Origin: Saccharopolyspora soli
GTDB lineage: Bacteria > Actinomycetota > Actinomycetes > Mycobacteriales > Pseudonocardiaceae
DNA: 64,000 bases
Assembly: GCF_022678645.1 (NCBI RefSeq)
Contig: NZ_JALBWV010000040.1
Location: 1 to 64,000 of the forward strand
Direction of reading: 5' to 3'
Below the pieces are notes generated by a model, which worked only from the letters and a program-made list of their open reading frames with translations, did no database searches and was not told where the DNA came from. Positions 10,126 to 34,404 of this stretch are shown piece after piece (position 1 is the stretch's first letter; each line of letters starts with the position of its first letter). Both the position numbers and the translations under genes were made by a program.

Positions 10126-10168
10126 AGGCGTGGGGAGAGGTGTGCCCCCTCCTCCTCTCCCCACGCCT
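10126..10168 (+). terminator. Strong terminator before the conjugation operon
   Basis: Perfect 15-bp inverted repeat, AGGCGTGGGGAGAGG / CCTCTCCCCACGCCT, with a 13-nt loop, about 90 bp after the third secreted-protein gene and about 30 bp before the next start codon. It has no clear U-tract. Confidence 0.75.
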
Positions 10169-10196
10169 GGCCGGGGATTTCCGGGAAGGAGTCCCG

Positions 10197-10424: not shown

Positions 10425-10867
10425 GACCGGGTCTTCCTCTTGGACAACCGCACTCCTACCGCTACGAAGTGCCGCAGGAGCTGACGGTGCCGTGGATCCT
10501 GCATGGCAGCCAACTGGAACAGCACGGAGAACCGGTTCTGGCGTCCGGGCTCCTGCTGGCGATGTGCGAGGACGCTTCCTGGCGAGTTCTTGCTCCGTTC
10601 CGCGATGAGGACGACACCACGGTCGGCTGGCATTTCGAGTTCCGCCACCTCGCGCCCTCGGTGGAGGGCGACTCCCTCGACATCACCACGATCGCGACCG
10701 ATCTCGTCGCCCGTGACGAACAGACCTGGGATGTGCGGTGGCGCACCGAGGTCGCCATGCCCCGTCTGAGCAGACCCGCGGCGGTCATCCAGCACCGGCT
10801 TCGGGTGCAGCCACGAAGCAGGTTTCTGCGGCGGTTGCCGACCGCGGTCCTGGCCCCGACACGGTGA
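10421..10867 (+). CDS. FlK-like hotdog-fold thioesterase domain protein
   Basis: The 148-residue protein follows the fluoroacetyl-CoA thioesterase (FlK) pattern closely: an early beta-strand (Y-R-Y-E-V-P-Q-E-L-T-V), then V-L-A-S-G-L-L-L-A-M-C-E-D-A-S, V-L-A-P-F, T-T-V-G-W, and F-R-H-L-A-P-S. From memory, FlK uses T42, E50 and H76; here the aligned residues are S42, E50 and H76, so the catalytic glutamate and histidine are kept and threonine becomes serine. The known family hydrolyses small acyl-CoA thioesters. Its place as second gene of a type IV secretion operon, with ATGA and GTGA overlaps on both sides, is unexpected; it may serve structurally rather than as an enzyme. Cytosolic: no signal or membrane segment. 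Confidence 0.65.
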   Translation: MRPGLPLGQPHSYRYEVPQELTVPWILHGSQLEQHGEPVLASGLLLAMCEDASWRVLAPFRDEDDTTVGWHFEFRHLAPSVEGDSLDITTIATDLVARDEQTWDVRWRTEVAMPRLSRPAAVIQHRLRVQPRSRFLRRLPTAVLAPTR

Positions 10868-13121: not shown

Positions 13122-14491
13122 GTCGGCTGGGCACGCAGGTTCCGCCGTCGAACGACCCCCTCCCGCCGGGGATACGGCCCCTCCCGCCAGGGGTGGAGAT
13201 CCCCTGGCAGCCCTTACCGCCGCTGGAGCCGCCGGGCCCGTCCCTGGACGAGCAGATCGGCCGTGAGGTCGGCACCACCGTGGGGGACTGGGCGGCCTCG
13301 GCGTTCGACTCCGCGATGCAGAGCCTGTGGTCGGCCGCGCTGGCGGTCCTGCGGGAAGCGTTCCTGTTCGCCGACCGTTTCTCCATCTTCACCGTGAGCA
13401 CAGATTCGGGCCCGGTCGGTGCCTTGTGGCCGATGATGGTGTGGATCTCCGGTGCGCTCGCGTTGGGCCTGTTTTTCTGGCAGTTGGCGTTGACGGCCGT
13501 GCGCGGCGGGAAAGGCTTCCTGCGCTTGGTCATCGGGCCCGTGCAATACGGCATCGCTCTGGCGATCACCGTCGGCATGGTGGCCGCGTTGTTGGTGGCC
13601 GCCGACGGACTCAGCTACGCCATCCTCACCACCGGACTACAGGCCCCAACCTTCACCGACGCAGTCACCAACGACGGCGGCCAATTCTTCTTCGACTGGG
13701 CCGACAGCACCTCCGACGTCACCAAGGTCCTGCTCGGCCTGTTGGGACTGTTTCTTCTGCTCCCAGCAGGAATCTGCCTGTTCCTGGAGATGGTGTTTCG
13801 TGAGGCCGCGATTTATGTGCTCGTCGCCACGATCCCGATCAGCGCAGCCGGGCTCCTCGCCGGCGCGACCGCACGCTGGTACTGGACATCCCTGAGATGG
13901 GGAATCGCGCTGATCACCGTGAAACCTGGGGTGTCGCTCGTGGTGGTCATCGGTGTCTCGACCGTCGCCGAGGCCCAGGGACTGTCCGGGCTGCTGGCGG
14001 GCGTGATCGTGCTGCCGATCTCCGTGCTGTGCCCGTTGGTGCTGTTCAAGTTGCTGGTCTTCGTCGACCCCAACACCGACAGCGGCGCCGGTCTGCGCCA
14101 CGCGGTGTCCTCGCTCGGGGTGCCCACCTTCGGCGACGGCATGCCGCTGCCCGGCGGTGACTCGGCCGGAGGAGGTGGCGGCGGCGCTCAGGAAACGGCG
14201 ACAGGCCAGCGCTTCGACGACGTCGCCGAGTCCGCGGGTGGTGACAACGACCGCGGCTTCAGCGCCGACGACGTCGACGACGACCCGTACGGCAGTTCCG
14301 GCGGCGATGACGACTCCGGCGGAGACCACGGCGGGATAGATCCCCCGCCTCCTCCGCCATCCCCGGATGACGACGGGCCCGGTGGAGGGGGCGGCCCAGG
14401 GTCCGGCGGGAGCGGACCTGGGCCAGGAGGTGGTGGTAGCGGCGGGGCCGCTGTCGAAGCCGAGGAAGCGGCGGCGGCGGTAGCGCTATGA
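13118..14491 (+). CDS. VirB6/TrbL-like polytopic membrane protein
   Basis: A 457-residue protein with a Pro-rich N-terminus, about six membrane helices between residues 95 and 330 (for example W-I-S-G-A-L-A-L-G-L-F-F-W and L-L-G-L-F-L-L-L-P-A-G-I), and a disordered C-terminal tail rich in Gly, Asp and Pro (from about residue 350). This is the typical build of the TrbL/VirB6 channel component in actinomycete conjugation systems. It overlaps the genes on both sides by 4 bp. Confidence 0.75.
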   Translation: MSRLGTQVPPSNDPLPPGIRPLPPGVEIPWQPLPPLEPPGPSLDEQIGREVGTTVGDWAASAFDSAMQSLWSAALAVLREAFLFADRFSIFTVSTDSGPVGALWPMMVWISGALALGLFFWQLALTAVRGGKGFLRLVIGPVQYGIALAITVGMVAALLVAADGLSYAILTTGLQAPTFTDAVTNDGGQFFFDWADSTSDVTKVLLGLLGLFLLLPAGICLFLEMVFREAAIYVLVATIPISAAGLLAGATARWYWTSLRWGIALITVKPGVSLVVVIGVSTVAEAQGLSGLLAGVIVLPISVLCPLVLFKLLVFVDPNTDSGAGLRHAVSSLGVPTFGDGMPLPGGDSAGGGGGGAQETATGQRFDDVAESAGGDNDRGFSADDVDDDPYGSSGGDDDSGGDHGGIDPPPPPPSPDDDGPGGGGGPGSGGSGPGPGGGGSGGAAVEAEEAAAAVAL

Positions 14492-15996
14492 CGGCCACGA
14501 CACGACGGGTGTATCGGGGACTGGGCCAGGCCGAACGGACCGGCTGGGTCCTGGGGCTGCGGCCGGGTCAGGCGATGGGCGTGCTGGCGCTGGCGGTGCC
14601 GGTGTTGGTCACGCTGTCGGCAGGCCAGTTCCGGCACGCGGCTGTGCTGGCAGTGCTGTGGATCGTGGTGACCTGCCTCATCGTGGTGCCCGTGCGCGGA
14701 CGGCCCGCGCTGCGTTGGTTGGGGCACTGGCTGCGCTACCAGTTCGGGGTGGCCACCGGTTGGTCACGGTGGCAATCCCGGGCCGCCGCCGGGCAGCCCG
14801 TCGATCCTCACGAGCCGGATCTCCCCGGGGTGCTGCAGCGCCTGGCGCTGCCGGACGGCCCGCCCATGCGGGATCGCGGGCGGGTGTGCTTGATCCACGA
14901 CACCGTGGACGCACGGTGGGGAGCCACGGCACGGCTGACGCATACCGGCGTCGGGATGCTCTCCACCGAAGAGTGCGCACGGTTGGCATCCCGGCTGGGG
15001 AACCTGCTGGTGTCACTGGGCCATCGAGAGGCCGTCGACCGTCTGACCCTGATGGTGCGCACCGTCCCGGACGACGGCAGCGACCACCAGGTATGGCGCT
15101 GCCAGCACGAGTCGCCCACCGCACCGCCGCTCGCGCGGCAGGCCACCGCCGAACTCGACCGCGTCCTGGCCAACTCCGCGGTGCGCCACGACGTGTTCGT
15201 GACCGTCTCCGGCCCGGAGGACAAGCTGCGCAAGCCCGCGGCGGCCGCCGGAGGTGGCGTGGCCGGACGCGGCTACGTGCTCTACCGGGTCCTCGAAGGA
15301 CTGGAAGAGCCGCTGAAGGCGCTCGGCGCACCGACGGTGCAGTGGCTGGGCGGCTCGCAGCTCGCCGAAGCTCTGCGTACCGGGTTCGCCCCGCACGACA
15401 GCGGGGTGCTGCGCACCACGCGGCTGACGCAGCCCGGCACGCACGGACTGCCGATGGCGGCGGCCGGGCCCACGCAAACGCCATCACCGTCGATGACCCG
15501 CTATACCCACGACGCGTACAGCAGCGTCGCCTACACCGTGCTCATGCCCGACACGATCGGCTTCGGCGCGCTCTCACCGCTGCTGGCGGTCAGAACCGCG
15601 GGCGAACGCCGCAGCCTCGCGGTGCACTACGAAGTCCTCGATGCCGCGCGCGCCGCGCGGGTGGTGCAGAGCAACCGGTACCGCGCCAACGTGCTCCGCG
15701 ATGTCAAACGCGGTCGAGGGTTCGCCTCCACAGCTGCGGATGAGCGCCAAGCCGCGGGTGCGCACACCGCCGAACGCGCGGTCGCCGCCGGACATGCGAT
15801 CGTGCGCTACACCGTCGCCGCAGCGGTGACCGTGCCCAGTCACTGGCCCGTCGACGATCACGCCGCCCGTCTGGAAAACGACGCGGCCGGACAGTTCCGC
15901 CTGCTGCGGCTGGATCTGGCGCACGACAGCGGTTTCGTCGCCGCGTGCCTGCCGGTCGGGCTGGGCCTGCCGCGCCAGCGGGGAGGCATGCTGTGA
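14488..15996 (+). CDS. SCO6880-family conjugation protein (PrgI-like membrane part)
   Basis: A 502-residue protein beginning R-R-V-Y-R-G-L-G-Q-A-E-R-T-G-W, then two adjacent membrane helices at about residues 30-70, a basic segment (R-Y-Q-F-G-V-A-T-G-W-S-R-W), and a large soluble domain. This architecture matches the SCO6880 family, which always sits between VirB6-like and VirB4-like genes in actinomycete type IV systems and is thought to pair with the VirB4 ATPase. It overlaps both neighbours by 4 bp. Confidence 0.8.
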   Translation: MTATTRRVYRGLGQAERTGWVLGLRPGQAMGVLALAVPVLVTLSAGQFRHAAVLAVLWIVVTCLIVVPVRGRPALRWLGHWLRYQFGVATGWSRWQSRAAAGQPVDPHEPDLPGVLQRLALPDGPPMRDRGRVCLIHDTVDARWGATARLTHTGVGMLSTEECARLASRLGNLLVSLGHREAVDRLTLMVRTVPDDGSDHQVWRCQHESPTAPPLARQATAELDRVLANSAVRHDVFVTVSGPEDKLRKPAAAAGGGVAGRGYVLYRVLEGLEEPLKALGAPTVQWLGGSQLAEALRTGFAPHDSGVLRTTRLTQPGTHGLPMAAAGPTQTPSPSMTRYTHDAYSSVAYTVLMPDTIGFGALSPLLAVRTAGERRSLAVHYEVLDAARAARVVQSNRYRANVLRDVKRGRGFASTAADERQAAGAHTAERAVAAGHAIVRYTVAAAVTVPSHWPVDDHAARLENDAAGQFRLLRLDLAHDSGFVAACLPVGLGLPRQRGGML

Positions 15997-17516
15997 GCAC
16001 CCGTCATCAGCGCAGCACCCAGGACCTGCTCGCAACCTTCGGCGCCTCCCCCACGTCTCCACCATCGTCACCGCAGCCGCAGCAGCGCGCCCGGCAGGAA
16101 CGACGGGAGCGGCTGAACCAGCCCCGCGCTCCCCGGTGCGGCCGCGCCGAGCGCGGCGCGGGGTGGGCACCGGTCGAGGCACCGCTGGCGGTGTATCAGG
16201 CCAGCACCGCCGACATCGGCGGGCTGTTTCCCCTGCTGGCCAGCGAGCCCATGCCCGCCGTCGGCGCCCGCATGGGATACGACCCGCTCTCCGGCGGCGC
16301 GTTCCACTTCCACCCCATCGAACTCGTGCTGCGCAACTGGTGCACCAACCCGAATCTGATCGTCTTCGGCGAGCCGGGAACCGGCAAAAGTAGCACTGTG
16401 GCGGCGTTTTTGCTGCGCATGATGGTTTTCGGTGTGCGCACACTGATTTCTGGTGACGTCAAAGGCGAATACTCGCCGCTGGTACGGGCTTTAGGGTACG
16501 AGCCCATCGAGCTCGGCCGCAGCCGACAGACGCGCATCAACGCCTTGGATCTGGGACCGCTGTCCTCGCACTGGGAATCCTGGACGGTGACCCGCCAACG
16601 CGAGGAACTCGACGGGCTGCTCGGCCGGTGGGTCACGCTCCTGAGCGCGTTGGCCGAAGCCCAAGGCCACCGCTGCACGGTGACCGACGAGGCCGTGCTC
16701 TCGCAGGTGCTGCGGCAGCTGGTCGGCGCCACCGACGGCACCACCCGGCTGCGCCCCACCACCATCGTGGACGTCCACGCCGAACTGGCCGATCCCGCCC
16801 CCACTCTGGTGCGGGAGATGCGGTTTGGCAGCCGTGGCCAGTTCCTCGATCACTTCCGGTCGATCACCGACGCTCTGGGCAACCTGATCGTCGGCCCCCT
16901 GGCCGGGCTCTTCGACGGGCCCACCACCGTCGCGGTCGACTGGAACGCCCCGATCCAGAGCATGGACCTGTCCCGGATCCGCGAATCCCGGGGCGATCAA
17001 GCCATCGCCGTCGCCTTGACCTGTCTGGGGTCGTGGGCGGCGGCCGCCACCGACCTCCGCCCCGCCGGTGAAATCCGCATCGTCGTGCGCGATGAGGTAT
17101 GGCGCCCGCTGCGGCTGGGCCCGCGCGCGGTCGCGGCCATCGACGCCGAGCTGCGACTGTCCCGCGCCGAGCAGAAAATCCCGATCCTCGTCGCCCACAA
17201 GCCCTCGGACTTTCTCGCCTCCGGTGCTGCCGGGTCGCAGGAAGTGGCGATCACCAAGGACCTGCTGGCGCTGTGCAGCACGCGGGTGCTTCTGGGGCAG
17301 TCAACCCGTATCGCCTCCGAGCTCGCCGACGAGCTCGCGCTCACCGACGCCGAAGAGGACGTCACGCTCGGCTGGGCCAACGAACGCAAAGGCCGCGCGC
17401 TGTGGAAGATCGAGAACCACCGCGGCATCAAGGTGCAGACCGTGCTGTCACCGACCGAGCGGCGGGTATTCGACACCAACGCCCAACTGCGGTCGGGGAC
17501 GCCGGGGCGCGGGTGA
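15993..17516 (+). CDS. VirB4-like conjugation ATPase
   Basis: A 507-residue ATPase from the GTG at 15993 (overlaps the previous stop). Walker A is G-E-P-G-T-G-K-S (126-133); Walker B is the I-V-V-R-D-E-V-W strand near residue 360. Motifs such as S-G-D-V-K-G-E-Y following the P-loop and a late L-L-G-Q-S-T-R strand are usual in VirB4/TraC motor ATPases, which energise assembly of the secretion channel and DNA transfer. A disordered Gln/Pro/Arg N-terminus precedes the core. The downstream gene starts 3 bp after its stop. Confidence 0.82.
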   Translation: MSTRHQRSTQDLLATFGASPTSPPSSPQPQQRARQERRERLNQPRAPRCGRAERGAGWAPVEAPLAVYQASTADIGGLFPLLASEPMPAVGARMGYDPLSGGAFHFHPIELVLRNWCTNPNLIVFGEPGTGKSSTVAAFLLRMMVFGVRTLISGDVKGEYSPLVRALGYEPIELGRSRQTRINALDLGPLSSHWESWTVTRQREELDGLLGRWVTLLSALAEAQGHRCTVTDEAVLSQVLRQLVGATDGTTRLRPTTIVDVHAELADPAPTLVREMRFGSRGQFLDHFRSITDALGNLIVGPLAGLFDGPTTVAVDWNAPIQSMDLSRIRESRGDQAIAVALTCLGSWAAAATDLRPAGEIRIVVRDEVWRPLRLGPRAVAAIDAELRLSRAEQKIPILVAHKPSDFLASGAAGSQEVAITKDLLALCSTRVLLGQSTRIASELADELALTDAEEDVTLGWANERKGRALWKIENHRGIKVQTVLSPTERRVFDTNAQLRSGTPGRG

Positions 17517-17519
17517 GCG

Positions 17520-18614
17520 ATGCCTACCAAAGGACTGGCGGCCGCGATTGCGGTGGCCGTGGCGGTGTGCGTGCTCGCGCCCTGCGCGCTGCTGTTCCTG
17601 TTGCTCATGGCGACGACCGGGTCCGGGTCGGTGTGCCAGACGATGTCCCACGGCGGGCAACAGGACATCGAGGGTCGCAGCTGGGACGCCGAGCAGCTGA
17701 CCAACGCCCGCATCATTACCGAGGTCGTCCTTCAGCGCCGTCTGCCCCACCGAGCGGCGGTGCTGGCGGTCTCCACCGCCATCGTCGAATCCCGGCTGAT
17801 CAACGTGCACTACGGCGACCGCGATTCGCTCGGCTTGTTTCAGCAGCGCCCGAGTCAAGGCTGGGGCTCGGCCGAGCAGGTCACCAACCCCGTCTACGCC
17901 ACCGGCACGTTCCTCGACCACCTCATGGCGTTGCCAGGCTGGTCCACGATGGACCCGGGCGGCGCGCAGCAACGGGTGCAGCGATCAGCGTTCCCCGAGC
18001 GCTACGCCCCGCAAGAACCGGCGGCGGCCGCGCTGGTCGACCAGTTCTGGACCGGCCCCCGCAACCCGCCGCTGCCCGCCGACGGCCCCCCAGCACAGCA
18101 GGTCAGCGCCACCGGGTGTCCTGATCTCGGCGGTGGCGGTGTGATCGCGGCCGCGCAACCCGGCCTGCCGCCCGGCTTCACGCTGCCCGCCGACCCACGC
18201 CAGCGCGCATCCGTGGAATTCGCAGTGGCCCAACTCGGCAAGCCCTACGTCTACGGCGCCAAGGGCCCCAACGAGTTTGACTGCTCCGGGCTGGTGCAAG
18301 CCGCGTGGGCGCACGCCGGAGTGCCGATCTCCACCGGCACACGAACCCAGCGCCACGACGGGTCGGCCGTGCCCGGCCCGGGCCAACTGCAACCCGGCGA
18401 CCTGGTGTTCATCCCCGGCTCGCTCGGCTCGCCCAGCGACCCCAGGCACGTCGGCCTCTACGCCGGTCACGGCCTGATCATCAACGCCTACGACGACACC
18501 ACCGGCGTCGTCGCGCACACCGTCGCCGACTGGTCCCCGCACATCGTCGCGATCCGCCGCGTCGCCCCACCCGCCGTACCCGCACCACCGCCGTGGGGAG
18601 GGCCACCCGCATGA
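17520..18614 (+). CDS. VirB1-like lytic transglycosylase / NlpC-P60 peptidase
   Basis: A 364-residue wall hydrolase with an N-terminal membrane helix (residues 5-32). Residues 60-180 form a transglycosylase-like domain (S-T-A-I-V-E-S-R-L, then D-S-L-G-L-F-Q-Q-R-P-S-Q-G-W-G). From residue 228 follows an NlpC/P60 domain with catalytic Cys255 (F-D-C-S-G) and His310 (R-H-V-G-L-Y). In conjugation systems such enzymes locally open peptidoglycan for the channel. It is anchored and acts outside the membrane. The last codons overlap the VirD4-like gene (ATGA). Confidence 0.87.
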   Translation: MPTKGLAAAIAVAVAVCVLAPCALLFLLLMATTGSGSVCQTMSHGGQQDIEGRSWDAEQLTNARIITEVVLQRRLPHRAAVLAVSTAIVESRLINVHYGDRDSLGLFQQRPSQGWGSAEQVTNPVYATGTFLDHLMALPGWSTMDPGGAQQRVQRSAFPERYAPQEPAAAALVDQFWTGPRNPPLPADGPPAQQVSATGCPDLGGGGVIAAAQPGLPPGFTLPADPRQRASVEFAVAQLGKPYVYGAKGPNEFDCSGLVQAAWAHAGVPISTGTRTQRHDGSAVPGPGQLQPGDLVFIPGSLGSPSDPRHVGLYAGHGLIINAYDDTTGVVAHTVADWSPHIVAIRRVAPPAVPAPPPWGGPPA

Positions 18615-20443
18615 GACCTGGCCTCGATCGCGATGTGAAACTATTCGCGTTGGCGGCGGCCGTCATGCTCGCCCTCACCGCCGTAGCGGGCGTGGGCATG
18701 CTCGGCGCGGCCGCCACCACCGCCCTCGACGGCGGGCCGTGGCAGATACCGCCCCCCGATGTGTGGGTGGAAGGGGTGCTGGGGGCGCTGTCGCATCCCG
18801 ACCGGCCCGGCGTGACGCTCGGACCACCCTGGGAGGCGGCACTGGCCGCCCACCCCGGCTGGTACTGGACGATCACCGTGGTCCTGCTAGTCGCGGTCGC
18901 CACGGCCGTCGGGGCACTCGCGGTGCCAGGATGGCGCCGATTCGGGCCGACTCCTCTCGGACACGCCACCCGCACCGATCTCCGCCGGGAACTCTCGGCG
19001 CGCGCGGCGCGACGCACCGCCGAATGGACCCGCCCGAGCCTGACCCCCGAGCAACGCAAACGCGCACCGTTGACGGATTTGGCGACCCCGCTGCACCGCG
19101 GGCCGACCGGGCAACTGTGGAGCCCACTGCACGACCCGACCGGGGTTCTCGCACCCACCCAGAGCGGCAAATCCCGCATGGACCTCGTCCACAAGGTGAT
19201 CGCCGCACCCGGAGCCCTGCTGTGCAGCAGCACGAAGCCCGACCTCCTGGAGTTCGCCGCGCTCGCGCGCACCCGCCGACCGAAGGCTGGCCCGGTCCTG
19301 GTCCTCGACGCCACAGGCGAGGTGCGCTGGCCCGCACAGATCCGACCCTCCCCGATCCGGGGCTGCACCTCCACCACCGTCGCACGGCGCCGCGCCGAAA
19401 CGCTCGTCGACGCCGCCTCCGTCGGCCTGGAACGCATCGGCGGCAACGACAAAGTATTCCGCGAACGCGCGAAAACAGTTGTGCAAGCGTATTTGCTGGC
19501 CGCCGCACTGGACGGGCGCACCGTCGAGGCCCTGGTGCGGTGGTCGATCACCAAACCCCCCGACCACGAGCCCGTGACCCTGCTCCGATCCCACGGCTAC
19601 CCCGAGCTCGCCGACAACCTCCGCGCCGAAATCGGCATGGTCGCCGAAACCAGCGACGCCGTCTGGCTGTCGGTGCGGCGGGTGATCGAGCCGTGGATGG
19701 ACCCACGGATCCGGGACCTGTGCACGCCCGAGCCGGGGCAGGAGTTCGACGCACGCGCGTTCGTGCGCAGCCGAGGATCGCTGTTCGTGGTCGCCGGTGA
19801 GCACCAGGCCGCTCAGGTGCGTCCGGTGCTGACCGCGCTGGTCGAGGACTTGCTCACCACCGAGCAGGACATGGCACTCTCACAGCCCTCCCGACGACTG
19901 GATCCGCCAGCCAGCAACGTACTCGACGAGCTCTACGACGCCACCCCGATTCCCCGGCTACCGGAGATCCTGGCCGATTCCGCTGGACGCGGCGTGCTCA
20001 TCCACTGGGCCGCGCAATCGATGGCCCACCTCGACGAGCTCTACGAGGAGACCGGGCGCCGCCAACTGCTCGACAACACCACCACCTTGACCATCTGGAG
20101 CGGCATCAAGGACTCCAAAACCCTGGAATGGATCTCCACGATCGCCGATCACCACGACAAGCTCCGGCATCAGATCCATTCCGACGGACTGTTCGGAGTC
20201 GGTCGCACCGCCGTAGGCACCGAATCCGTCCCGACCTACCGACCCGGCGCGGTGCGCACCCTGCGGCGCGGCCGCGTACTGCTGGTCCACCGCAACCTCA
20301 AACCGATCCTGGCGCGAGTACTCGACGTACGGAAACGTCCGGACTGGTCCGAGCTGGCCGCCGACCAGGAAGCCGTGCGCGCCGGAACCGCTGCGGTCGA
20401 TGACCGCGGCTACGCCCTCCCACCAACGGGAGCGCCCCGGTGA
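18611..20443 (+). CDS. VirD4/TraG-like conjugative coupling ATPase
   Basis: A 610-residue protein with two N-terminal membrane helices (about 9-36 and 85-106), the typical anchor of coupling proteins. The P-loop is A-P-T-Q-S-G-K-S (181-188) and the Walker B strand is N-V-L-D-E-L-Y (about 440). The C-terminal V-L-L-V-H-R-N-L-K-P segment is common at the end of this family in actinomycetes. It should bring the DNA-protein substrate to the VirB4-type channel. Start chosen at the ATGA overlap with the NlpC gene; the frame is open further upstream. Confidence 0.83.
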   Translation: MRPGLDRDVKLFALAAAVMLALTAVAGVGMLGAAATTALDGGPWQIPPPDVWVEGVLGALSHPDRPGVTLGPPWEAALAAHPGWYWTITVVLLVAVATAVGALAVPGWRRFGPTPLGHATRTDLRRELSARAARRTAEWTRPSLTPEQRKRAPLTDLATPLHRGPTGQLWSPLHDPTGVLAPTQSGKSRMDLVHKVIAAPGALLCSSTKPDLLEFAALARTRRPKAGPVLVLDATGEVRWPAQIRPSPIRGCTSTTVARRRAETLVDAASVGLERIGGNDKVFRERAKTVVQAYLLAAALDGRTVEALVRWSITKPPDHEPVTLLRSHGYPELADNLRAEIGMVAETSDAVWLSVRRVIEPWMDPRIRDLCTPEPGQEFDARAFVRSRGSLFVVAGEHQAAQVRPVLTALVEDLLTTEQDMALSQPSRRLDPPASNVLDELYDATPIPRLPEILADSAGRGVLIHWAAQSMAHLDELYEETGRRQLLDNTTTLTIWSGIKDSKTLEWISTIADHHDKLRHQIHSDGLFGVGRTAVGTESVPTYRPGAVRTLRRGRVLLVHRNLKPILARVLDVRKRPDWSELAADQEAVRAGTAAVDDRGYALPPTGAPR

Positions 20444-22093: not shown

Positions 22094-23035
22094 TCAGTTG
22101 CCGCGTAGCTCGCGGGAACCCTTCAGTGGCACCGAGGTGAGACTGGGACGCAGTAGCAACCCCGCCGGGGTGACCTCGACGTTGGCCTCGGGGTAAACCA
22201 GTAGCACGTTGCGTAGTGCCGCGGTGATGTTTTCCTTGAGCTTGTATCGACCCTTCGGAGTCTTCGAGAACTGGTAGCCGAACTGCTCCCCGATGTCCTC
22301 CCACTTGTGTGTGAAGGGCCGCTGGAGGTTGAACATCTTGTAGGTCAGCCAGGCGTAGAGGTCGATCTCGGCGGCCGATCCCAGCAGCCGCACGACTTCG
22401 AGATTCAGCGGCACCGGGCTCTTGACGATCTCTTCGTAGAAGTCGCTGCTGAGCTGCACGTACGAGGGGAACAGCGACTCCTGCCCCATCTCGCCATCGC
22501 CGAGATCCAAGGCCCACGCCTTGGCGATCTTCAGGTTGACGCCAGCCTGGCGCTGATCGTTGTTACCCATCCATTGGTACGTGATCTCGGCGTTGAACAG
22601 CCGGGTCGCCTGTTCCTTGACCCGCGTGCGGGTGCCGTTGCGGCCACCGGTGGCTCGCTGCCCTAGCAACTTCACGACGAAGTCGGACAGCGACGAGCCC
22701 AGTTCGATTTTCGGGCTCTGGGTACGCAGGGCCTCGGCGGTGACCCACATGAGCAGAGCTCGCGGGATGACGCCGAACGGGTAGCCGTAGCTACTGGTTT
22801 CCCCGCTGGGGCCAAGGCGTACGCCCGGACGAACGGTGAGCCAGAACGCCCCGTTGCGCCGGACCCAGACCTCGGTGCCGGCCTTGGGCTGCCGGTACGG
22901 CAGGAACGCCATCGTCAGCGGGGCAGGGTTGAAGGCCAGGGAGTCGCCGCTGTCGTCGTCACGTTCCCGCAGCTGCATCATCCGGTTCACGCGGTCGAGA
23001 GCGGTGGTCTTGGGACGACCTTTGGTCGGCGGCAT
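22094..23035 (-). CDS. repA: Plasmid replication initiator, RepA family
   Basis: A 313-residue protein with the layout of plasmid-encoded RepA (RepA_C family): basic N-terminus, G-Y-P-F-G-V-I-P-R-A-L-L-M-W-V-T-A-E-A, then L-G-x-S-L-S-D-F and G-G-R-N-G-T-R-T-R, and a second winged-helix-like domain with I-D-L-Y-A-W-L-T-Y-K and W-E-D-I-G-E-Q-F-G-Y-Q-F. These initiators bind iterons and open the origin. The gene points away from the array of eight 16-bp iterons starting about 95 bp upstream of its ATG, as expected for an iteron-controlled replicon where the initiator also represses itself. Basic segments and lack of signal peptide fit a DNA-binding cytosolic protein. Confidence 0.82.
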   Translation of the reverse strand: MPPTKGRPKTTALDRVNRMMQLRERDDDSGDSLAFNPAPLTMAFLPYRQPKAGTEVWVRRNGAFWLTVRPGVRLGPSGETSSYGYPFGVIPRALLMWVTAEALRTQSPKIELGSSLSDFVVKLLGQRATGGRNGTRTRVKEQATRLFNAEITYQWMGNNDQRQAGVNLKIAKAWALDLGDGEMGQESLFPSYVQLSSDFYEEIVKSPVPLNLEVVRLLGSAAEIDLYAWLTYKMFNLQRPFTHKWEDIGEQFGYQFSKTPKGRYKLKENITAALRNVLLVYPEANVEVTPAGLLLRPSLTSVPLKGSRELRGN

Positions 23036-23128
23036 CGTCCTAGGCTAGTTCTCTCACGCCGACAACTTGGCGCGGCTCGCCGACAACATCGCGAGCCAGG
23101 TTGGCGTGCGGAGACTACAACCCGTTAC

Positions 23129-23609
23129 GCATAAGACGGGGACGATCACGGTATCCGGCCACGACCTGGAGAGATCGAAACATGTTCGAGTGACGCCCGG
23201 CGACAGTCTCGACGGGGTGGTCGCGCTGTCCACGCATAAGAGGGGGACACGCGAACAAGGGTGGAGTGGTACGCATAAGAGGGGGATAGGTCGAGGCGCC
23301 CACAGATCCACTTTACGCACACTTTTGATCACTATTAGTGACACTTGTGAGCTCCCGCCCGCTCGGCGGAAGCGGTGTACTTGGTTGTCCACGCATAAGA
23401 GGGGGATGCAGTGTGCTCAACGAGGCAGCTGGCGACGCCGATGTGTCACGGCGGTCGACTTGTCCACGCATAAGAGGGGGAATCGAGGCAGGGATGTGGA
23501 CAACTTGCGGCCGGTCTAGTTGATCCACACATATGAGGGGGACCGCCGGGGTCGAAACCGCCGAGAGCGACGCGCATAAGAGGGGGACAGCTGCGCATAA
23601 GAGGGGGAC
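23129..23609 (+). repeat. Iteron array, probable replication origin
   Basis: Eight copies of CGCATAAGAGGGGGAC, all in the same orientation, begin at 23129 (one change), 23233, 23272, 23392, 23467, 23528 (degenerate), 23573 and 23594. Spacing is 104, 39, 120, 75, 61, 45 and 21 bp. Copies at 23392 and 23467 are fused to TTGTCCACG, an 8/9 match to the actinomycete DnaA box. AT-rich DNA follows at about 23625-23700. The array lies directly upstream of repA, the classic layout of an iteron origin. Confidence 0.85.
23495..23503 (-). promoter_or_regulatory. DnaA box inside the origin
   Basis: TGTGGACAA on the plus strand equals TTGTCCACA on the minus strand, a perfect match to the high-GC actinomycete DnaA box. 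Two 8/9 matches lie at 23385-23393 and 23460-23468 on the other strand. Confidence 0.6.
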
Positions 23610-23718
23610 GAGCATCAGAGTTATCGCAGTTCAGAGCCCATATTTAGCAGTCCCTAGTTGTTTCTCTCTTGTAGGGTTTCTTTTCTTGTAGTAGGGGCCT
23701 GCCAACTGTTGTTGTCCC

Positions 23719-23789
23719 GTCCGGACGAACCTTGCGAAGTCCGGACTTACCTTGCGAGGCCGCTGCGAGCGTCCGGACTTAGGTTGCGA
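23719..23789 (+). repeat. Three repeats at the end of a Tn7-like transposon (putative TnsB sites)
   Basis: Three 19-bp direct repeats, GTCCGGACttACCTTGCGA with small changes, at 23719-23737, 23739-23757 and 23771-23789. They lie just before tnsA and just after TGTTGTTGTCCC, which could be the transposon tip (Tn7-like ends start TGT). Tn7-like elements carry several ~20-bp TnsB-binding sites at each end. No matching opposite end was found in the window. Confidence 0.6.
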
Positions 23790-23817: not shown

Positions 23818-24579
23818 GTGGACACTTCGCCGGTGACGAGTGACGGGGTCTCGCCGCCTGTCGACGTGGTCGAGGTCGGCTTCGCGCTGGACGGCGAGGA
23901 ACACCGGCTGCCGTTGACCGAGGTGTGGTCGGTTCCGTTCGAGACATGTTCTCCAGCCCGGAGCTTTCCCTCCTACCGTGGTCAGCGGCACTTTCCAGGT
24001 TTGTGGTGGTCGGCGACGACGGGCCGGCACGTCGGGTTCGAGTCGTGGCTGGAGCGCGACCGGTTGATGCTGCTCGACTTCGATCCGGACGTCGTAGGCA
24101 TCTCGTCGCAGCCGTTCTGGCTGCTGTGGACCGCGGACAACGGCCGAACCCGTTCGCACGCCCCGGACTACTTCGCCCGGCTCGCGGACGGCCGCGGGCT
24201 CGTGGTCGACGTCCGTCCGCCGGACCGGATCAAGCCAAGCGACGCGGTCGCGTTCGACCTGACCAGGTGCTGTTGTGACGCGCTGGGCTGGGACTACACC
24301 GTGCTCGGCGCCGACGACGAGGTGCTCGTGGCGAACGTGCGCTGGTTGGCCGGCTACCGCCACCCCCGCCACCAGGTGCCCGAGCTGGCCGGGCAGCTGC
24401 GCACGGTGTTCGCGTCCGGGCTCGGGCTGCACGACGGAGCCGAGCGGGTCGGCGATCCGATCGCGGTGCTGCCGGTGCTGTTCCACCTGCTCTGGCAGCA
24501 CGAGCTCCACGCCAGCCTGTCCCGACCGCTGCACCCGGACACCCTCGTGACCACGGTCGACGCCGGAGTCCGGGCATGA
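23818..24579 (+). CDS. TnsA-like transposase endonuclease subunit
   Basis: A 253-residue protein from a GTG. It contains the N-terminal TnsA endonuclease pattern: S-F-P-S-Y-R-G-Q-R-H-F-P-G, G-F-E-S-W-L-E-R-D (catalytic Glu, about 78), P-D-Y-F-A-R (catalytic Asp, about 120) and V-V-D-V-R-P (Lys replaced by Arg, about 135). TnsA cuts the 5' ends during Tn7-like cut-and-paste transposition together with TnsB. The three upstream repeats and the truncated TnsB gene that follows show this is one end of such an element. The gene looks intact, but its partner does not, so the element is probably immobile. Confidence 0.78.
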   Translation: MDTSPVTSDGVSPPVDVVEVGFALDGEEHRLPLTEVWSVPFETCSPARSFPSYRGQRHFPGLWWSATTGRHVGFESWLERDRLMLLDFDPDVVGISSQPFWLLWTADNGRTRSHAPDYFARLADGRGLVVDVRPPDRIKPSDAVAFDLTRCCCDALGWDYTVLGADDEVLVANVRWLAGYRHPRHQVPELAGQLRTVFASGLGLHDGAERVGDPIAVLPVLFHLLWQHELHASLSRPLHPDTLVTTVDAGVRA

Positions 24580-29264: not shown

Positions 29265-29762
29265 CCTGATCGCCGCCGGAGTCGCGACGTTCGTGATCAA
29301 GGGCCTTGCCGAGCGGTCCGATCGGCCAGACGGGCGCCTTCGTCAAGTGAGCGCTCGTTCCTGTGTCAATACAACAACCAGCGGCACGCTAGGGACCCGG
29401 TAAGAACCGCATGATCAATGGCTGGTTACCCCGCCTACTGAAATCGGGCTCTGGACAAATGATCAAGAAGCACGGGATCAGCGCCGATCATCGGATAGCA
29501 TCACCGCAGATCCGCAGGGATCCGGACAGGAAAACGCCCCCTCGGCTGCAACCGAGAGGGCGTTCGGACGGCAAAGTCGCGTCCGGCTCCTTGCGCCACA
29601 CACCGCACGAGAACCAGGCCAGGCTCGTTCGTGTGGCGCATACGACGCGCAGGGCTCACCCCCGGCGCGCCTTCGGGCAGTGTAGCGGGAACCGCTCGCC
29701 GGGCCGCAACACATCGCCGACCTCGCGCTGCACGTCACGTGCTTGGGGGAAGGCCCCAACCA
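29265..29762. other. Gene-free stretch with a terminator-like hairpin
   Basis: No convincing gene. Just after the helicase a short hydrophobic frame reads I-L-L-V-A-D-L-I-A-A-G-V-A-T-F-V-I-K-G but lacks a start. A 13-bp stem with one mismatch (AACGCCCCCTCGG / CCGAGAGGGCGTT) lies at 29533-29564 and could be a terminator or attenuator ahead of the next gene. Confidence 0.45.
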
Positions 29763-31025
29763 GTGACCACCGATCGCCTTCGCACCGCAGCGGACATCCC
29801 AGACGACGCCGAGATCGGCCTGCCGGACCCGGAGAAGGGCTACAAGTTCGCCCAGGTCCGAGACTGGATCTCGATACTGTCGAAACTGGACCATACCCCG
29901 TTCCGGGTGTACACGATCATGCTCGCCGTCGCCACGAAGCAATCGCAGTACAAGCGGCGGCTGACCAAAGACGCGCTCCGCTGGCTGATGCCCGGCGTCA
30001 GCGGCAAACCGATGGCCATGAGGACGTTCAACGGCGCGCTCAACGAGCTCATCGCCCAGGGCCTGGTGAAGCTGAAGGACAAGCGCACCGAGGAGGTGCG
30101 CACGGTCGACGGGCAATTCCACAAGGAGGAGTCGTTCCGGTTCGAACTGCAGCTGTGGCCGTCCGACCCCGACGGCTTCAAGGGCTACCGCAACGTGATG
30201 GACAAGCTCGACGACTACCCCGGCCCTGGCTGGGACGACGCCATAACCGAAGCCAACAAAGCGGCCCGCCGAAGCCGTGGGCAGAATTCTGCCGACGGTC
30301 CCGACGGTCCCGACCAGGGGATTGTGGACAACTCCCGTGAGCAGAATTCTGCTCACGGGCAAAACGGACACGCCGAGGACGCGATGCAGAATTCTGCCGA
30401 CCCGATGCAGAATTCTGCCGCCACCGAGTCCCCTACCAGCCAAAACCAGACCCACCCATACAGCTCTTCCCAGACAACTCCTCTAGGTACCTACTCCCCT
30501 CCCCTTACGAAAGACGACGCGAGCGCGGACGCGGGCGAGCCGAGCCCTGCGGATAGCACTGCTCGCCAGGGCAAGGGGGAAGAACCCCAAGGGGTTGATG
30601 AGCTGGCTCCATTGGCACGGCGAGTCCTGAACGACTGCGCTACCGGGCTGCCGCAAGACCTCATCGACGCGATGACCGACGACGAAAAGTCCAAGCTCGT
30701 GCGCCTGGTCATCGCTGCCTGGCAACACGACATTGGCACCGCGACAATCAAACACGCACTCAAGACCCGCAACGACACTGTGAGGCGGCTCGCGATGGTG
30801 TGGGAGCACCGGTTGACGAAGCTGATCGATGCGCACGTGGAGCGCACCAGCAACCGGATCTTCCTGCCCCCCTGCTCCAGCTGCCGCGCTGCAGAAGGAG
30901 ACCCGCCGAGCGTGCGATTCGTCCTTGCTGACCGGCTGGACGCGACCAAGGGCGAGATCCCATGCCCGGCCTGCCACCCGAACGGGCAGGCCGAGAACGT
31001 CACACGCATCCAGCGGGCATCATGA
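29763..31025 (+). CDS. Winged-helix replication-type protein with in-gene palindromes
   Basis: A 420-residue protein from the GTG at 29763. The N-terminal 130 residues form a winged-helix-like domain (V-R-D-W-I-S-I-L-S-K-L-D-H-T-P-F-R-V-Y, then L-T-K-D-A-L-R-W-L-M-P-G and F-N-G-A-L-N-E-L-I-A-Q-G-L-V), as in phage and plasmid replication proteins. The middle (about 173-260) is disordered and contains four Q-N-S-A repeats encoded by a 12-bp palindrome. The C-terminus has a helical domain and two Cys pairs (C-S-S-C and C-P-A-C). Initiators such as lambda O carry their origin repeats inside their own gene, so this may be a second replication protein; that is inference. Confidence 0.6.
   Translation: MTTDRLRTAADIPDDAEIGLPDPEKGYKFAQVRDWISILSKLDHTPFRVYTIMLAVATKQSQYKRRLTKDALRWLMPGVSGKPMAMRTFNGALNELIAQGLVKLKDKRTEEVRTVDGQFHKEESFRFELQLWPSDPDGFKGYRNVMDKLDDYPGPGWDDAITEANKAARRSRGQNSADGPDGPDQGIVDNSREQNSAHGQNGHAEDAMQNSADPMQNSAATESPTSQNQTHPYSSSQTTPLGTYSPPLTKDDASADAGEPSPADSTARQGKGEEPQGVDELAPLARRVLNDCATGLPQDLIDAMTDDEKSKLVRLVIAAWQHDIGTATIKHALKTRNDTVRRLAMVWEHRLTKLIDAHVERTSNRIFLPPCSSCRAAEGDPPSVRFVLADRLDATKGEIPCPACHPNGQAENVTRIQRAS
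30281..30418. repeat. Four copies of palindrome GCAGAATTCTGC inside a gene
   Basis: Exact copies at 30281-30292, 30341-30352, 30386-30397 and 30407-30418 (spacing 60, 45, 21 bp). The second is the centre of a perfect 26-bp palindrome (30334-30359). All lie within the linker-coding part of the winged-helix replication-like gene and encode Q-N-S-A. Confidence 0.8.
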
Positions 31026-31273
31026 TCGCTCATGCTCACGAAGGCCCCGAAACGGCACCTGATTCCGCTCTGGGCGGCCTCGTCGCCCCAAAGCTGGCTT
31101 GCCCCGGCCGCGAATAGGCCGGGAACGCGAGAGGCAATCTCAAGCCGATTCGGGATCACCAGCCAAGACCGGAACCGCTGAACGCGCTTGCTCCAACCAC
31201 CGCAGGTCCAAGACCGAACAGACCAGGCCCCCTTTCGAGCGGGACCGGCCCGTCCGTTCCGCGGTTCTTGGGT
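31026..31273. other. Intergenic, start of the long non-coding region before parA
   Basis: No gene seen; open frames here are short and inconsistent. The site array begins at 31274. Confidence 0.4.
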
Positions 31274-31837
31274 TGTCCGGACATGTGGGCAACTCGACCG
31301 GACAGCGAGCCGTTCCAGCCAGCCTAGCCGCGGGCCATGCCACGAAGTGCATCTCTGGATGACCGGACATTGCCGCGGCCACGGACACCCGTCCGGACAA
31401 TCGGCTGCTATCCGGAACACACCGTCCGGACCTCAACGACTGGTGCCGGGGAGAGCGGGCAGCGCCGGTCCGCCCAGACGCGCGGTCCGGTCAAGTCCAG
31501 GACAGATCCGGACACCGGACAGGACCCCCGTACAGAGGCCACTGTGTACTCAACTAATCGAGCTACCTGCACGTATTTGCGGTACGTGCGCCTCGCCTAC
31601 ACAGGGCGATCCGAGGTGGACCAGCCTCTGGCCACTCGTAGCAGCGGGATACCTTTATGTCCGGTCAACGATGTGGCCCACCGCGTCGGGTGACCGGACA
31701 GCCGCGTCCGGCACGAAATGCGTTGCGGCACACCTGACCGCGGCCAGATGACGGTCAACCTGTCCGGGCTGTCCGGATGGTCGGTCACAGGAACGGACGA
31801 TTCGACACCTGTCCGGTCAGGTGGATCTGTCCGGACA
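31274..31837. repeat. Array of TGWCCGGWCA sites upstream of parA (candidate centromere)
   Basis: Six exact matches to TGWCCGGWCA (W = A or T) at 31274, 31360, 31658, 31691, 31810 and 31828, three with one mismatch (31295, 31390, 31484) and several weaker ones (31409, 31423, 31505, 31761, 31770). The core is itself palindromic. Such a dense cluster in about 560 bp of non-coding DNA before a ParA operon suggests binding sites for the ParB-like partner, a partition centromere, or a second set of iterons. Confidence 0.7.
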
Positions 31838-32057
31838 CGTCTGATCAGGCCGAGACAGCTTGAACTTCCTCGCTCGGCTGGAGCTGGAATGGTGCTCTCG
31901 GTCAGGTCTTCTCGGCGTGTGTCAACCCCGGCGTCGCTCACTATTCCTTCGACTTCCTCCCGCTTTCGAGGCACGCGTGGCGCATCGATGCTGTTAACAC
32001 CACGTGTTAACGTTCTCCCGCCTGCGGTCTTGTCTAGCTGCCAAGCTTGCTGGCTTG
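31838..32057. other. Non-coding region before parA
   Basis: No gene seen. Contains an AACACG-TGTT-like palindrome near 31998-32012 and the approach to the inverted GTGTCAC repeats. Confidence 0.35.
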
Positions 32058-32101
32058 AGTGACACGTCTGCGTGTCACTGTGTCACGCACGTGTGTCACG
32101 C
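32058..32101. promoter_or_regulatory. Inverted GTGTCAC repeats before parA
   Basis: A perfect 9-bp inverted repeat, AGTGACACG / CGTGTCACT with TCTG loop (32058-32079), followed by two more GTGTCAC copies (32080-32086, 32093-32099). It lies 30 bp before the parA start codon and the same heptamer recurs after parB, so it is a likely operator or partition site. Confidence 0.65.
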
Positions 32102-32131
32102 CTGCTCAGAGCACCAAAGGAAGGAGGAGGG

Positions 32132-33169
32132 ATGATCGATAGCAAAGTCTCAGCCGTAGTCGATACGGAGCTAATCAAGGCCATCGAGGAGATCTTCGTG
32201 CATCGCCAACGTCGCGCCGCCCGCAAGGTGTGGACGTTGGTGAACAACAAAGGTGGCGTAGGTAAGACCTTCGACACCCTCGCGCTCGCCTATGCCCTTG
32301 CCGTGTACTTCGGACTGAACGTCCTTGTCGTGGACATGGACCCGCAAGGAAACAGCACCAGGCGAGCGGGCTACGGACTCTACGAGATCGAGAACCGAGC
32401 CACGCTGACCGAAGCCCTCAAGATGAACCAGGAAGGCATCGCGAGTCAGATCGTGCTGCCATGCCTCTGGGAAGACATCCACAACGGCGGGATCGACATC
32501 CTGCCTTCCCGTCTCGACCTAGAGGCCAGGGTCAGCGAAGCGGCGATCGCCGATGCCGTCAGCAAGATCACCGAAGCAGTCACAGATCATGACCCTGACC
32601 TGCTCAGGCGCCTGGACCCCATCTTCCAGAAGGTCATCGGCAGCCTCACACACCCGCGCGAGCGCCTTCGCAACATCCTCGGGAATGACTTCCTCGACGA
32701 GTACGACATCGTGCTCATCGACTGCCAACCCAGCCTCGGACACCTCACCCAAATGTCGTATGTGGCCTCCGATGGTGTGCTGCTGGCGACGAAACCCGAC
32801 TATGACTCAGTCAACGGCGCCGCCCGCACCAGATCCGTCTTGCACGAGATCCGCAGCGCCCTCGGCGTGCCGACCTTGGACGTCCACGGCGTCCTGGTCA
32901 CTGACCTCCAGATCATCAACAGAACGATCACTAAGGAACGGCAGCACGGCAGCACCCGGCCAGCTGAGATCAGCCTCAGCCAGCTGAAGCGCACCTTCGG
33001 CGACCTGGTCTGGGAACCGTTCTGCGAGCGGAAGTCCAGCCTGGCCGACAACACAAACATCGGGTTGAGCCCAGTGGACGGCCTCAACCCGCAGGACCGT
33101 CGATACATGAACGAACTGCTCATCAACTGGGGCGCCAAGCTACTGGAGGTCTCCTGTGCCGCCGCGTAA
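32132..33169 (+). CDS. parA: ParA-family partition ATPase
   Basis: A 345-residue protein from the ATG at 32132, chosen for the ribosome site AAGGAGGAGG. It has the deviant Walker A K-G-G-V-G-K-T (40-46), switch I D-M-D-P-Q-G-N (68-74) and Walker B I-V-L-I-D-C-Q-P-S-L-G, the full ParA/MinD set. A short basic N-terminal helix region (R-Q-R-R-A-A-R-K) precedes the ATPase. ParA proteins move plasmid copies over the nucleoid using a ParB bound at a centromere. The overlapping next gene is the likely ParB, and the GTGTCAC and TGWCCGGWCA repeats nearby are candidate ParB sites. It is longer than typical ParA by an insertion near 140-180. Confidence 0.88.
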   Translation: MIDSKVSAVVDTELIKAIEEIFVHRQRRAARKVWTLVNNKGGVGKTFDTLALAYALAVYFGLNVLVVDMDPQGNSTRRAGYGLYEIENRATLTEALKMNQEGIASQIVLPCLWEDIHNGGIDILPSRLDLEARVSEAAIADAVSKITEAVTDHDPDLLRRLDPIFQKVIGSLTHPRERLRNILGNDFLDEYDIVLIDCQPSLGHLTQMSYVASDGVLLATKPDYDSVNGAARTRSVLHEIRSALGVPTLDVHGVLVTDLQIINRTITKERQHGSTRPAEISLSQLKRTFGDLVWEPFCERKSSLADNTNIGLSPVDGLNPQDRRYMNELLINWGAKLLEVSCAAA

Positions 33170-33869
33170 ACAACGGACGTATCCCGACATCGAGCTCAAG
33201 CCGGAACGCGAGAGCATCGTCGGCGCAACCTCCACCACGACCGAACCCCCAGCTACAGCCGAAAAGCCGAAAGAAGACGCACCAAGCTCGGCCCCCACCA
33301 AGGAGACCAGCCACAACGGTAACGGCCGGAGCGTCTCGGACCCCTCAGCAGCTTCCAAGCCAGCGCCAGTACAGGAGCCCGCCGCCGCGAGGAGAGAGTC
33401 GACCGCTGCGCCGGAAGCAGACTCCGGCGCAGGATCGCTGGCCGGGGAGAAGGCGCCCCATGAACCGGCCGCCGATCCCTCGACGGCCGACGGCACCGGC
33501 AGCTCGATCGCTGTCCGCCAGGACCGTCAGATCGACATCAACGAGGACACGCAGTCCTCCTCGTATCAGCAACGGCCCAACAACGCCGCGAACGCGGGGT
33601 TCGCCGGCCTCCGCTTCGACTCGGTGCCGCAGAACGCAGGGCCGCTGATCGCGCCACCGACAAAAAAAGAAACCAAGTCCACGGCCATCACGATCCGGTG
33701 CACCGAAGCAGTCCGAGAGGACTTTCGTGCCAACGTGAACGCCCTCGCAGCGGTGCACCGCATCCCTGTCGAAGAAGTGAACGTCTTTGTTCTCATGGAG
33801 ATCATGGAGATCTTCCAACGAGTCAACAACCGGATCATCGCGTGGAAAAACGGCGATGACCAGCCGTGA
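33156..33869 (+). CDS. ParB-like partition partner (small, disordered N-terminus)
   Basis: A 237-residue protein from a GTG overlapping the parA gene by 14 bp. The first ~165 residues are low-complexity, rich in Pro, Ala, Ser and Glu. The C-terminal 65 residues (T-A-I-T-I-R-C-T-E-A-V-R-E-D-F-R-A-N-V, then I-P-V-E-E-V-N-V-F-V-L-M-E-I) look like a beta-strand plus two helices of a ribbon-helix-helix or similar DNA-binding fold. This matches the idea of a ParG/ParR-type centromere-binding partner rather than a classical ParB. Assignment rests mostly on context. Confidence 0.6.
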   Translation: MPPRKQRTYPDIELKPERESIVGATSTTTEPPATAEKPKEDAPSSAPTKETSHNGNGRSVSDPSAASKPAPVQEPAAARRESTAAPEADSGAGSLAGEKAPHEPAADPSTADGTGSSIAVRQDRQIDINEDTQSSSYQQRPNNAANAGFAGLRFDSVPQNAGPLIAPPTKKETKSTAITIRCTEAVREDFRANVNALAAVHRIPVEEVNVFVLMEIMEIFQRVNNRIIAWKNGDDQP

Positions 33870-33906
33870 CACGCGCATGTGTCACGCACGCGTGACACAG
33901 TGACAC
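33865..33906. promoter_or_regulatory. Inverted GTGTCAC/GTGACAC repeats after the par operon
   Basis: GTGACAC at 33866-33872, GTGTCAC at 33879-33885, GTGACAC at 33892-33898 and 33900-33906, forming two overlapping inverted repeats. They match the heptamer before parA and lie 17 bp before the next start codon. Confidence 0.65.
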
Positions 33907-33922
33907 AGTTGATGGGAGTTGG

Positions 33923-34189
33923 ATGAACGGGACTAGCGTCGGGGCTGACGACCCCGCGAGGTGGGGCATTGTAGTCAAGCAGCCTCGTGAGTCTGATTCG
34001 ACGTCCATGGGTGCCCGTGTTCCGTCCGCGGTCGCTGAGAACTGGAAAAAGGTCGTCGAGCGCATCGCAGAGCAGTACAACATCGGCAAAGGTCAAGCCG
34101 CTGCTATTGGCCTCGTCGTTGCCAGTCAACACCTCGACGAGTGGGGCGCGATGGCCGCAAAACTCGGGCTCGTCGAAGAAGTCTCCTGA
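33923..34189 (+). CDS. Small helical protein of the partition locus
   Basis: Eighty-eight residues from the ATG at 33923 (GGGAGTTGG upstream). After a polar N-terminus it has S-M-G-A-R-V-P-S-A-V-A-E-N-W-K-K-V-V-E-R-I, then I-G-K-G-Q-A-A-A-I-G-L-V-V-A-S-Q-H-L, a strand-helix-helix pattern like ribbon-helix-helix DNA-binding proteins. Its promoter region contains the second GTGTCAC repeat set, so it may be regulated with parA-parB and could be a third centromere- or operator-binding protein. A perfect 18-bp terminator follows. Confidence 0.62.
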   Translation: MNGTSVGADDPARWGIVVKQPRESDSTSMGARVPSAVAENWKKVVERIAEQYNIGKGQAAAIGLVVASQHLDEWGAMAAKLGLVEEVS

Positions 34190-34211
34190 CTAGCACGGAT
34201 GAAATTCTAAG

Positions 34212-34252
34212 GTGCCGGTGTTCCTCGCGCACTCCGCGAGGAACACCGGCAC
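34212..34252 (+). terminator. Strong terminator after the par locus
   Basis: Perfect 18-bp stem (arms 34212-34229 and 34235-34252, GTGCCGGTGTTCCTCGCG and its complement) with a 5-nt loop. Confidence 0.85.
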
Positions 34253-34297
34253 TGACAATCTTTACTGGCGAGAGTTAGGGACGCGCTGTCGACGCAC

Positions 34298-34404
34298 TTC
34301 GGCCCCGCCGACCGTGCGGCTCTCACCGCCTCGTGCGTCGACTTCCTCAACTCGGCGAACTCTCACCGTAGGCGGTGCGGCCGCTCCAGATGGGGCACGC
34401 CGGC
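34298..34404 (-). pseudogene. Remnant paralogue of the neighbouring minus-strand gene
   Basis: Reverse-strand translation gives E-F-A-E-L-R-K-S-T-H-E-A-V-R-A-A-R-S-A-G-P-K, near-identical in layout to the C-terminal D-F-A-G-L-G-K-S-T-H-D-A-V-K-A-A-R-A-A-G-P-K of the gene at 34533-35375. A TGA replaces the Cys codon just upstream (R-L-R-stop). DNA identity to 34570-34660 is high and ungapped, so a second copy of that gene once stood here and was deleted down to its 3' end. Confidence 0.7.

Follow-up and report, generated by a model that had tools for sequence, protein, structure and literature searches.

A local array of TGWCCGGWCA sites beside a type I-like partition locus on a Saccharopolyspora soli plasmid

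The closest described counterparts of the locus reported here are plasmid partition and stability systems that act on short repeats. In pSM19035 these are heptads, which overlap the promoter regions of copS, parA and parB (excerpted account in PMC9499535). They follow one another directly as WATCACW, with 7-10 per site. The ParFG system of TP228 combines an RHH partner with repeats, both direct and inverted, that precede the operon, and the centromere of pCXC100 is described as consisting of direct repeats only (both from the excerpted part of PMC5016525). In pIJ101 the SpdA2/sps system uses a short palindrome, CGTCACGTGACG, that is bound by a plasmid protein and whose one to three copies lie inside spdA or ahead of it, with loss affecting segregational stability (PMC4170104, in excerpt). 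Among Streptomyces plasmids, the partition systems that were detected are reported in a 2026 paper to be almost exclusively of the HTH-ParB kind (PMC13245405, in excerpt).

Here we describe a locus that shares some features with each of the first four. The window, by which we mean the whole 64-kb stretch of DNA that was analysed, covers bases 1-64,000 of a contig of 81,722 bp (C119). Judged by its gene content this contig is a plasmid; no terminal overlap that would point to a circle was found. A Pfam scan identified a TraG/TrwB-type coupling protein (18602-20443) and an NlpC/P60 protein on it. The same contig (L001) also carries AdoMet-synthetase-like, F420-ligase-like and MoxR/vWA genes at 12584-13801, 15562-16500 and 7612-10742, respectively. 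The features that matter for the argument are collected in Table 1.

Table 1. Replication and partition features of the window, with the evidence for each.
Feature	Position	Strand	Evidence and remarks
RepA (RepA_C)	22094..23035	-	PF04796 9.9e-23; Prauserella marina plasmid RepA 91% identical (308 aa compared)
GCATAAGAGG iterons with DnaA boxes	23127..23610	no strand	Probable origin 1
Gene for a probable replication initiator of the lambda-O kind; start codon uncertain	29631..31025	+	Gene order in relatives; best Pfam match, a winged-helix domain, at 0.042 and so below cut-off
Four GCAGAATTCTGC palindromes and exact DnaA box at 30323 (minus strand)	30281..30418	no strand	Inside gene 29631..31025; probable origin 2
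TGWCCGGWCA / CCGGACA array	31274..31837	no strand	6 exact, 3 one-mismatch and 6 two-mismatch sites; shuffle controls
Four GTGWCAC heptads before parA	32059..32099	no strand	Start-to-start 13, 8, 13; end 32 bp before parA start codon
ParA ATPase, 345 aa	32132..33169	+	Pfam AAA_31 2.1e-27; Walker A KGGVGKT at residues 40-46
237-aa partner	33156..33869	+	14-bp overlap with parA; N-terminus long and of low complexity, helix pair at the C-terminus; RHH-like by model
Four GTGWCAC heptads before 88-aa gene	33866..33906	no strand	Start-to-start 13, 13, 8
88-aa protein	33923..34189	+	Own upstream region; helices after a flexible N-terminus; model looks RHH-like by eye
Perfect hairpin, 16-bp arms	34214..34250	no strand	Inverted-repeat search, no terminator score; perhaps operon end

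The array that gives this locus its interest had been noticed in a sequence-only reading, which reported six exact and at least three one-mismatch copies of the palindrome in about 560 bp. Our recount returned six and three: the exact sites start at 31274, 31360, 31658, 31691, 31810 and 31828, and the one-mismatch sites at 31295, 31390 and 31484. Six more sites with two mismatches fall in 31250-31850, in some cases overlapping others. The sites are split between a block at 31274-31521 and another at 31658-31837. When positions 31026-32131 underwent 2000 dinucleotide shuffles, exact copies averaged 0.0115 and never exceeded 1, against 6 observed, and copies with at most one mismatch averaged 0.24 with a maximum of 3, against 9 observed. 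The commonest 7-mer in 31026-31900 is CCGGACA, with 12 copies (shuffle maximum 5, n=300). The claim that the motif is too frequent for chance therefore holds locally. It fails for the window as a whole, where 13 matches with at most one mismatch compare with 10.4 expected, and where 13 were reached in 22 of 100 shuffles. Since nine of these 13 are packed into 564 bp, the unusual feature is the clustering and not the window-wide count. Nor is the motif equally dense elsewhere: every one of the six exact copies on the contig lies inside the array, and the entire genome holds 64 in 9,354,073 bp. The array also lies in non-coding DNA, as had been supposed, with no ORF picked by a codon-bias filter between 31026 and 32071. 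A search of 31026-34300 found no sigma-70 promoters, and the sites show no clear helical phasing. The array is real, local and positionally tied to a partition locus that resembles type I loci with RHH partners.

Two features of type I loci are found here, namely a Walker ATPase of the ParA family, recognised by its AAA_31 match, and repeats upstream of parA, in this case from two repeat families. The solved relatives of the ATPase are ParA/Soj proteins, including delta' and ParF, and no N-terminal HTH domain scored above the Pfam cut-off. Pfam found neither ParB_N nor HTH_ParB in the 237-aa partner, so that the signature of a classical HTH-ParB/parS system is missing from it and the earlier description, a ParA operon with a partner other than a classical ParB, is borne out. 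Neither partner matched ParG or CB_ParB_C in Pfam, or any family above cut-off in Pfam and NCBIfam. What kind of proteins might they be? A single-sequence model of residues 130-237 of the larger one has a mean pLDDT of 68.8 (83-95 in the helix blocks), with helices at 55-72 and 76-102 of the modelled fragment and no strand. For the 88-aa protein the mean is 63.4 (about 62-88 in the helix blocks), with helices at 35-52, 56-69 and 71-80, again with no strand. In both models the N-terminus is disordered and the helices pack together. Because the strand of an RHH protein arises on dimerisation, its absence from a monomer model is no test of this fold. Foldseek placed entries for RHH proteins or RHH antitoxin complexes at ranks 1-18 for the 237-aa model, each with an E-value of at least 1, followed by other folds. 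We take the top entries (Arc, AmrZ, CopG, AtaR, TacA and KacA) to be RHH by name, while the chains matched within complexes may differ. An RHH fold of the two partners is thus weakly supported by the models.

Our main reading, to which we assign a probability of roughly 0.4, is that the array has a partition role: in a centromere region belonging to a type I RHH locus (a class formerly called Ib), it would make up the distal part. It has a competitor close at hand. A second repeat family, absent from the sequence-only reading, lies nearer to the par genes than the array does. The contig holds 16 copies of GTGWCAC, eight of which make up the two four-heptad sets of Table 1. The set before parA, with 4 heptads against a shuffle maximum of 3 (n=300), is a candidate operator and/or centromere. 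The set before the 88-aa gene is weak alone: three of its four heptads lie in the tested interval 33870-33922, a count that one shuffle in 300 equalled at k=7, and 29 in 300 at k=6. By analogy with the heptads at the par promoters of pSM19035, these sets are the first candidates for the parS site and the operator, and as a candidate partition site they are as good as the array. It is possible, at what we judge to be clearly less than even odds, that the heptads alone are both operator and centromere, and that the array provides landing sites for a factor unrelated to ParA. Such a factor could be a regulator, a nucleoid-associated protein or a transfer protein, encoded by the host or by the plasmid. 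The placement of heptads before both parA and the 88-aa gene, which is the pSM19035 layout (PMC9499535, in excerpt), argues for this, whereas the position and density of the array beside parA argue against it.

More evidence on the same question comes from a second contig of the genome, C6 (L079). Its positions 17700-18452 hold nine CCGGWCA/TGWCCGG cores, against a shuffle mean of 0.50 and a maximum of 3 (n=1000), and this cluster adjoins genes for an HTH-ParB and a ParA. Four perfect TATTCCGTACGGAATA palindromes are found in 13591-18452 (at 14461, 15983, 16137 and 17874), one of them within the CCGGACA cluster. TATTCCGTACGGAATA is very probably the own parS of the C6 HTH-ParB, and a single factor acting on both the C119 array and the C6 cluster would not be the C6 ParB. 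That protein has no close relative: its one hit among 297 genomes is its own, and plasmid proteins are below 40% identity among the matches listed. A cluster beside a locus with its own four palindromes favours an unrelated factor, and so do TGWCCGGWCA pairs in 32 of 386 genomes of the family (read-backwards control: 0 among the matches listed), a frequency that suggests a common operator or regulator-type site. The C6 cluster is, however, the weaker one, with 7 merged cores, and C55, one of three further places checked in the same genome, has 6. An IS481-type transposase also lies among the C6 palindromes, and TGACCGGACA is part of one published Arthrobacter IS481 end (excerpt of PMC6305408). 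A Ku gene stands beside the C6 par genes. As a complication for the centromere reading, the C6 cluster is suggestive only.

For each of the 31 other genomes with a pair we examined the places concerned, in most cases together with 1.5-2.7 kb on the flanks, and none held a match to the window ParA, RepA, Rep or partner proteins. At least eight sites in 600 bp occur only at L042/L057, L048 and L049; the remaining pair places have at most four. The L048 and L049 sites follow a 42-bp period and are coding by appearance, and those of L042/L057 lie inside a rep-like gene. In L057 (8234-8460) this is a winged-helix gene with internal ACCGGACATC..GATGTCCG repeats, which contain the array core ACCGGACA and are placed like initiator iterons.

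The recurrence of ACCGGACA in the winged-helix gene of this family member bears on another explanation, in which the array would supply a replication initiator with iterons or with a copy-control (inc) region. The start of the array 248 bp behind the rep gene would suit such a function too. We nevertheless consider this decidedly unlikely, and the iteron set that the sequence-only reading had offered as an alternative loses its appeal once the initiators are inspected, since both have distinct iterons of their own (23127-23610 and 30281-30418) with DnaA boxes. The replication sites of both are thus accounted for without the array. The RepA iterons lie upstream of the gene, and the same GCATAAGAGG words stand upstream of the Prauserella RepA gene. 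The second Rep, with palindromes and a DnaA box inside its gene, is arranged as lambda O and ori-lambda are. Searching with tblastn, we found relatives of this Rep on 24 plasmid records, and compared stretches from 10 of them with the window, 11 copies in all, of which some, such as L058 and L059, come from similar plasmids and so are not independent. The next gene is annotated as dnaB or replicative helicase in five of the seven Streptomyces plasmid stretches. Repeats lie inside the rep gene in 10 of the 11 copies, the window included (the exception is L022). They are plasmid-specific and mostly palindromic, with GCAGAATTCTGC in the window, a GGAATTCC type in Amycolatopsis (L023, 25373-25523), AATTCCGC in Nocardiopsis (L025, 4934-5096) and others in Streptomyces (L058-L064), so that the motif differs between plasmids and the location is constant. 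By contrast, a repeat array behind the rep gene was found in the window only and in none of the 10 homologs, a weak control because the stretch examined is short (90-1,200 bp) and in five plasmids consists mostly of the helicase gene. Elsewhere on the Amycolatopsis sp. NBC_01286 plasmid (L023), a cluster of GGACGTCC-type repeats occupies 1174-1962, in a 3-kb stretch without annotated genes.

The array itself also looks unlike an iteron origin, in which an initiator lies next to iterons, DnaA boxes and AT-rich DNA. The spacing of its sites is irregular (9 to 153 bp), every DnaA-box match in it has at least one mismatch, and GC stays at 57% or more in all 80-bp stretches sampled. Reps of this kind carry their repeats within the rep gene, which suggests a simple rule for such plasmids: an array found between rep and parA is best considered first as a partition site.

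Could the array serve transfer instead, as an oriT or as a clt-like site of a transfer protein? The clt sites of Streptomyces are the comparison for the latter. The coupling protein encoded on the contig and the split form of the array, with small inverted repeats visible by eye in the gap between its blocks, would fit. The coupling-protein gene is, however, about 11 kb away, the gap (31515-31655) folds no better than shuffles (z -1.29), and no relaxase family was found among 29 contig proteins scanned with Pfam, a part of the contig's total. We therefore regard a conjugation site as very unlikely indeed. A transposon end was considered as well and rejected: the TnsA-like gene of the window has repeats of its own with a TTGCGA flank, and no flank common to the array sites was found. 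Those repeats are three copies of GTCCGGAC in 23719-23789, each followed by (C/G)TTGCGA, directly before the gene (23818-24579), and are perhaps the end of a Tn7-like element.

A useful comparison for the partition reading is offered by plasmid relatives of the window ParA, which are 29-41% identical to it (30 listed of 2957 records). We picked 11 of the 30 by hand, including two near copies, L027 and L028. In nine of the 11 the interval upstream of parA holds a short, replicon-specific repeat, whose count was equalled by no more than 3 shuffles in 300 at k=6 or k=7. No clear array is seen there in L030 and L033. Most of these arrays are close to parA. Those of L031 (AGCGACC x12, in tandem) and L032 (CGGGTAG x14) are about 310-540 bp upstream, as in the window, and the proximal part of the L032 interval is not above shuffles. 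The genes preceding the L031 and L032 arrays contain no internal repeats by the same shuffle test, and these arrays are candidate centromeres or iterons. When the products of nine next genes were compared with Pfam, the one match above cut-off was CB_ParB_C in L030. Below cut-off were RHH_10 and RHH_3 in L027, RHH_10 and ParG in L032, and CB_ParB_C at 0.1 in L036. No RHH match was obtained in six of the nine, L036 among them, the others giving nothing or sub-threshold matches to other families. Weak RHH partners may thus escape surveys of partition systems such as that of PMC13245405.

Close relatives of the par proteins are rare. At E 1e-25 the window ParA was found in its own genome only (1 of 390 genomes of the family and 1 of 298 of the order), and at E 1e-10 it had distant matches in 13 of 22 genomes of the genus, the best foreign one at 6.6e-21. 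The 88-aa protein was confined to its own genome at E 1e-4 (1 of 297). Peptide scans of genome-contig and viral-contig collections gave no close relatives of the par proteins, and a tblastn search of plasmids with the 88-aa and 237-aa proteins gave none either.

How might such a locus work? ParA would be a nucleoid-bound ATPase, and one or both of the RHH-like partners would bind DNA. The GTGWCAC heptads by parA and the 88-aa gene would act as operator and parS-like site. The TGWCCGGWCA array would form a second, larger class of site, most likely loaded by the 237-aa protein, and the loaded array would build a partition complex that is moved by ParA. Both the assignment of proteins to sites and a need for the array in plasmid stability are inferred. 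The best overall reading is a type I RHH locus that has two site classes, in which the CCGGACA array may act as distal centromere or may instead be bound by a third protein.

Several lines of evidence make the centromere identity of the array plausible. It occupies non-coding DNA between a replication gene and parA, with strong shuffle statistics; nine of 11 ParA relatives carry upstream repeats, two of them at a like distance; two RHH-like genes and two site classes coexist here; and the second Rep keeps its repeats in its own gene, as seen in 10 of the 11 copies, itself included, which leaves the array unexplained by Rep. The case is weakened because the pSM19035-like heptads could be the whole centromere, and because no second locus joins a like ParA to CCGGACA at the cut-offs used. 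CCGGACA also clusters on C6 by a different par locus with parS-like palindromes of its own, and the array core repeats inside the rep-like gene of L042/L057. Further, L030 and L033 are without a clear array, the proximal part of L032 is within shuffles, six of nine partners are without an RHH match, and the fold matches of the 237-aa protein are all weak. A bolder joint claim, which we hold to be rather unlikely, is that the locus has a two-tier centromere, with one ParA, two RHH proteins and separate site classes (GTGWCAC heptads as operator or short parS, and a long array made of TGWCCGGWCA palindromes), or that the array recruits one factor to the par loci of both C119 and C6.

Should the array prove to be a centromere, RHH-type partition would here use a site made of palindromes and not of heptads, with two candidate binders, and the locus would show the coupling of one ParA to two site classes. 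It would then also provide a compatible stability cassette for actinobacterial vectors.

Of the known systems, pCXC100 is a Leifsonia plasmid, and its ParAB (type Ib) is resembled by the ParA relative of Leifsonia sp. ZF2019 (L031, 41% identity) with its upstream tandem repeat. A CB_ParB_C partner is present in the L030 relative, whereas the window partners are without this domain, and the window array is palindromic and irregular, unlike the direct repeats of the pCXC100 centromere. TP228 resembles the window in having an RHH partner and repeats upstream of the operon, and its ParF is among the solved relatives of the window ParA, but the window partners are without a ParG match. The sps site of pIJ101 shares with the array the character of a short palindrome, and differs from it in sequence. 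The delta-omega system of pSM19035 is similar in its small RHH partner, in the heptads near promoters and in delta', which is related to the window ParA. Its heptads are consecutive, whereas those of the window are separated by gaps of 1 or 6 bp, and the window differs further from pSM19035 in having an additional, unrelated array of palindromes and two RHH-like genes.
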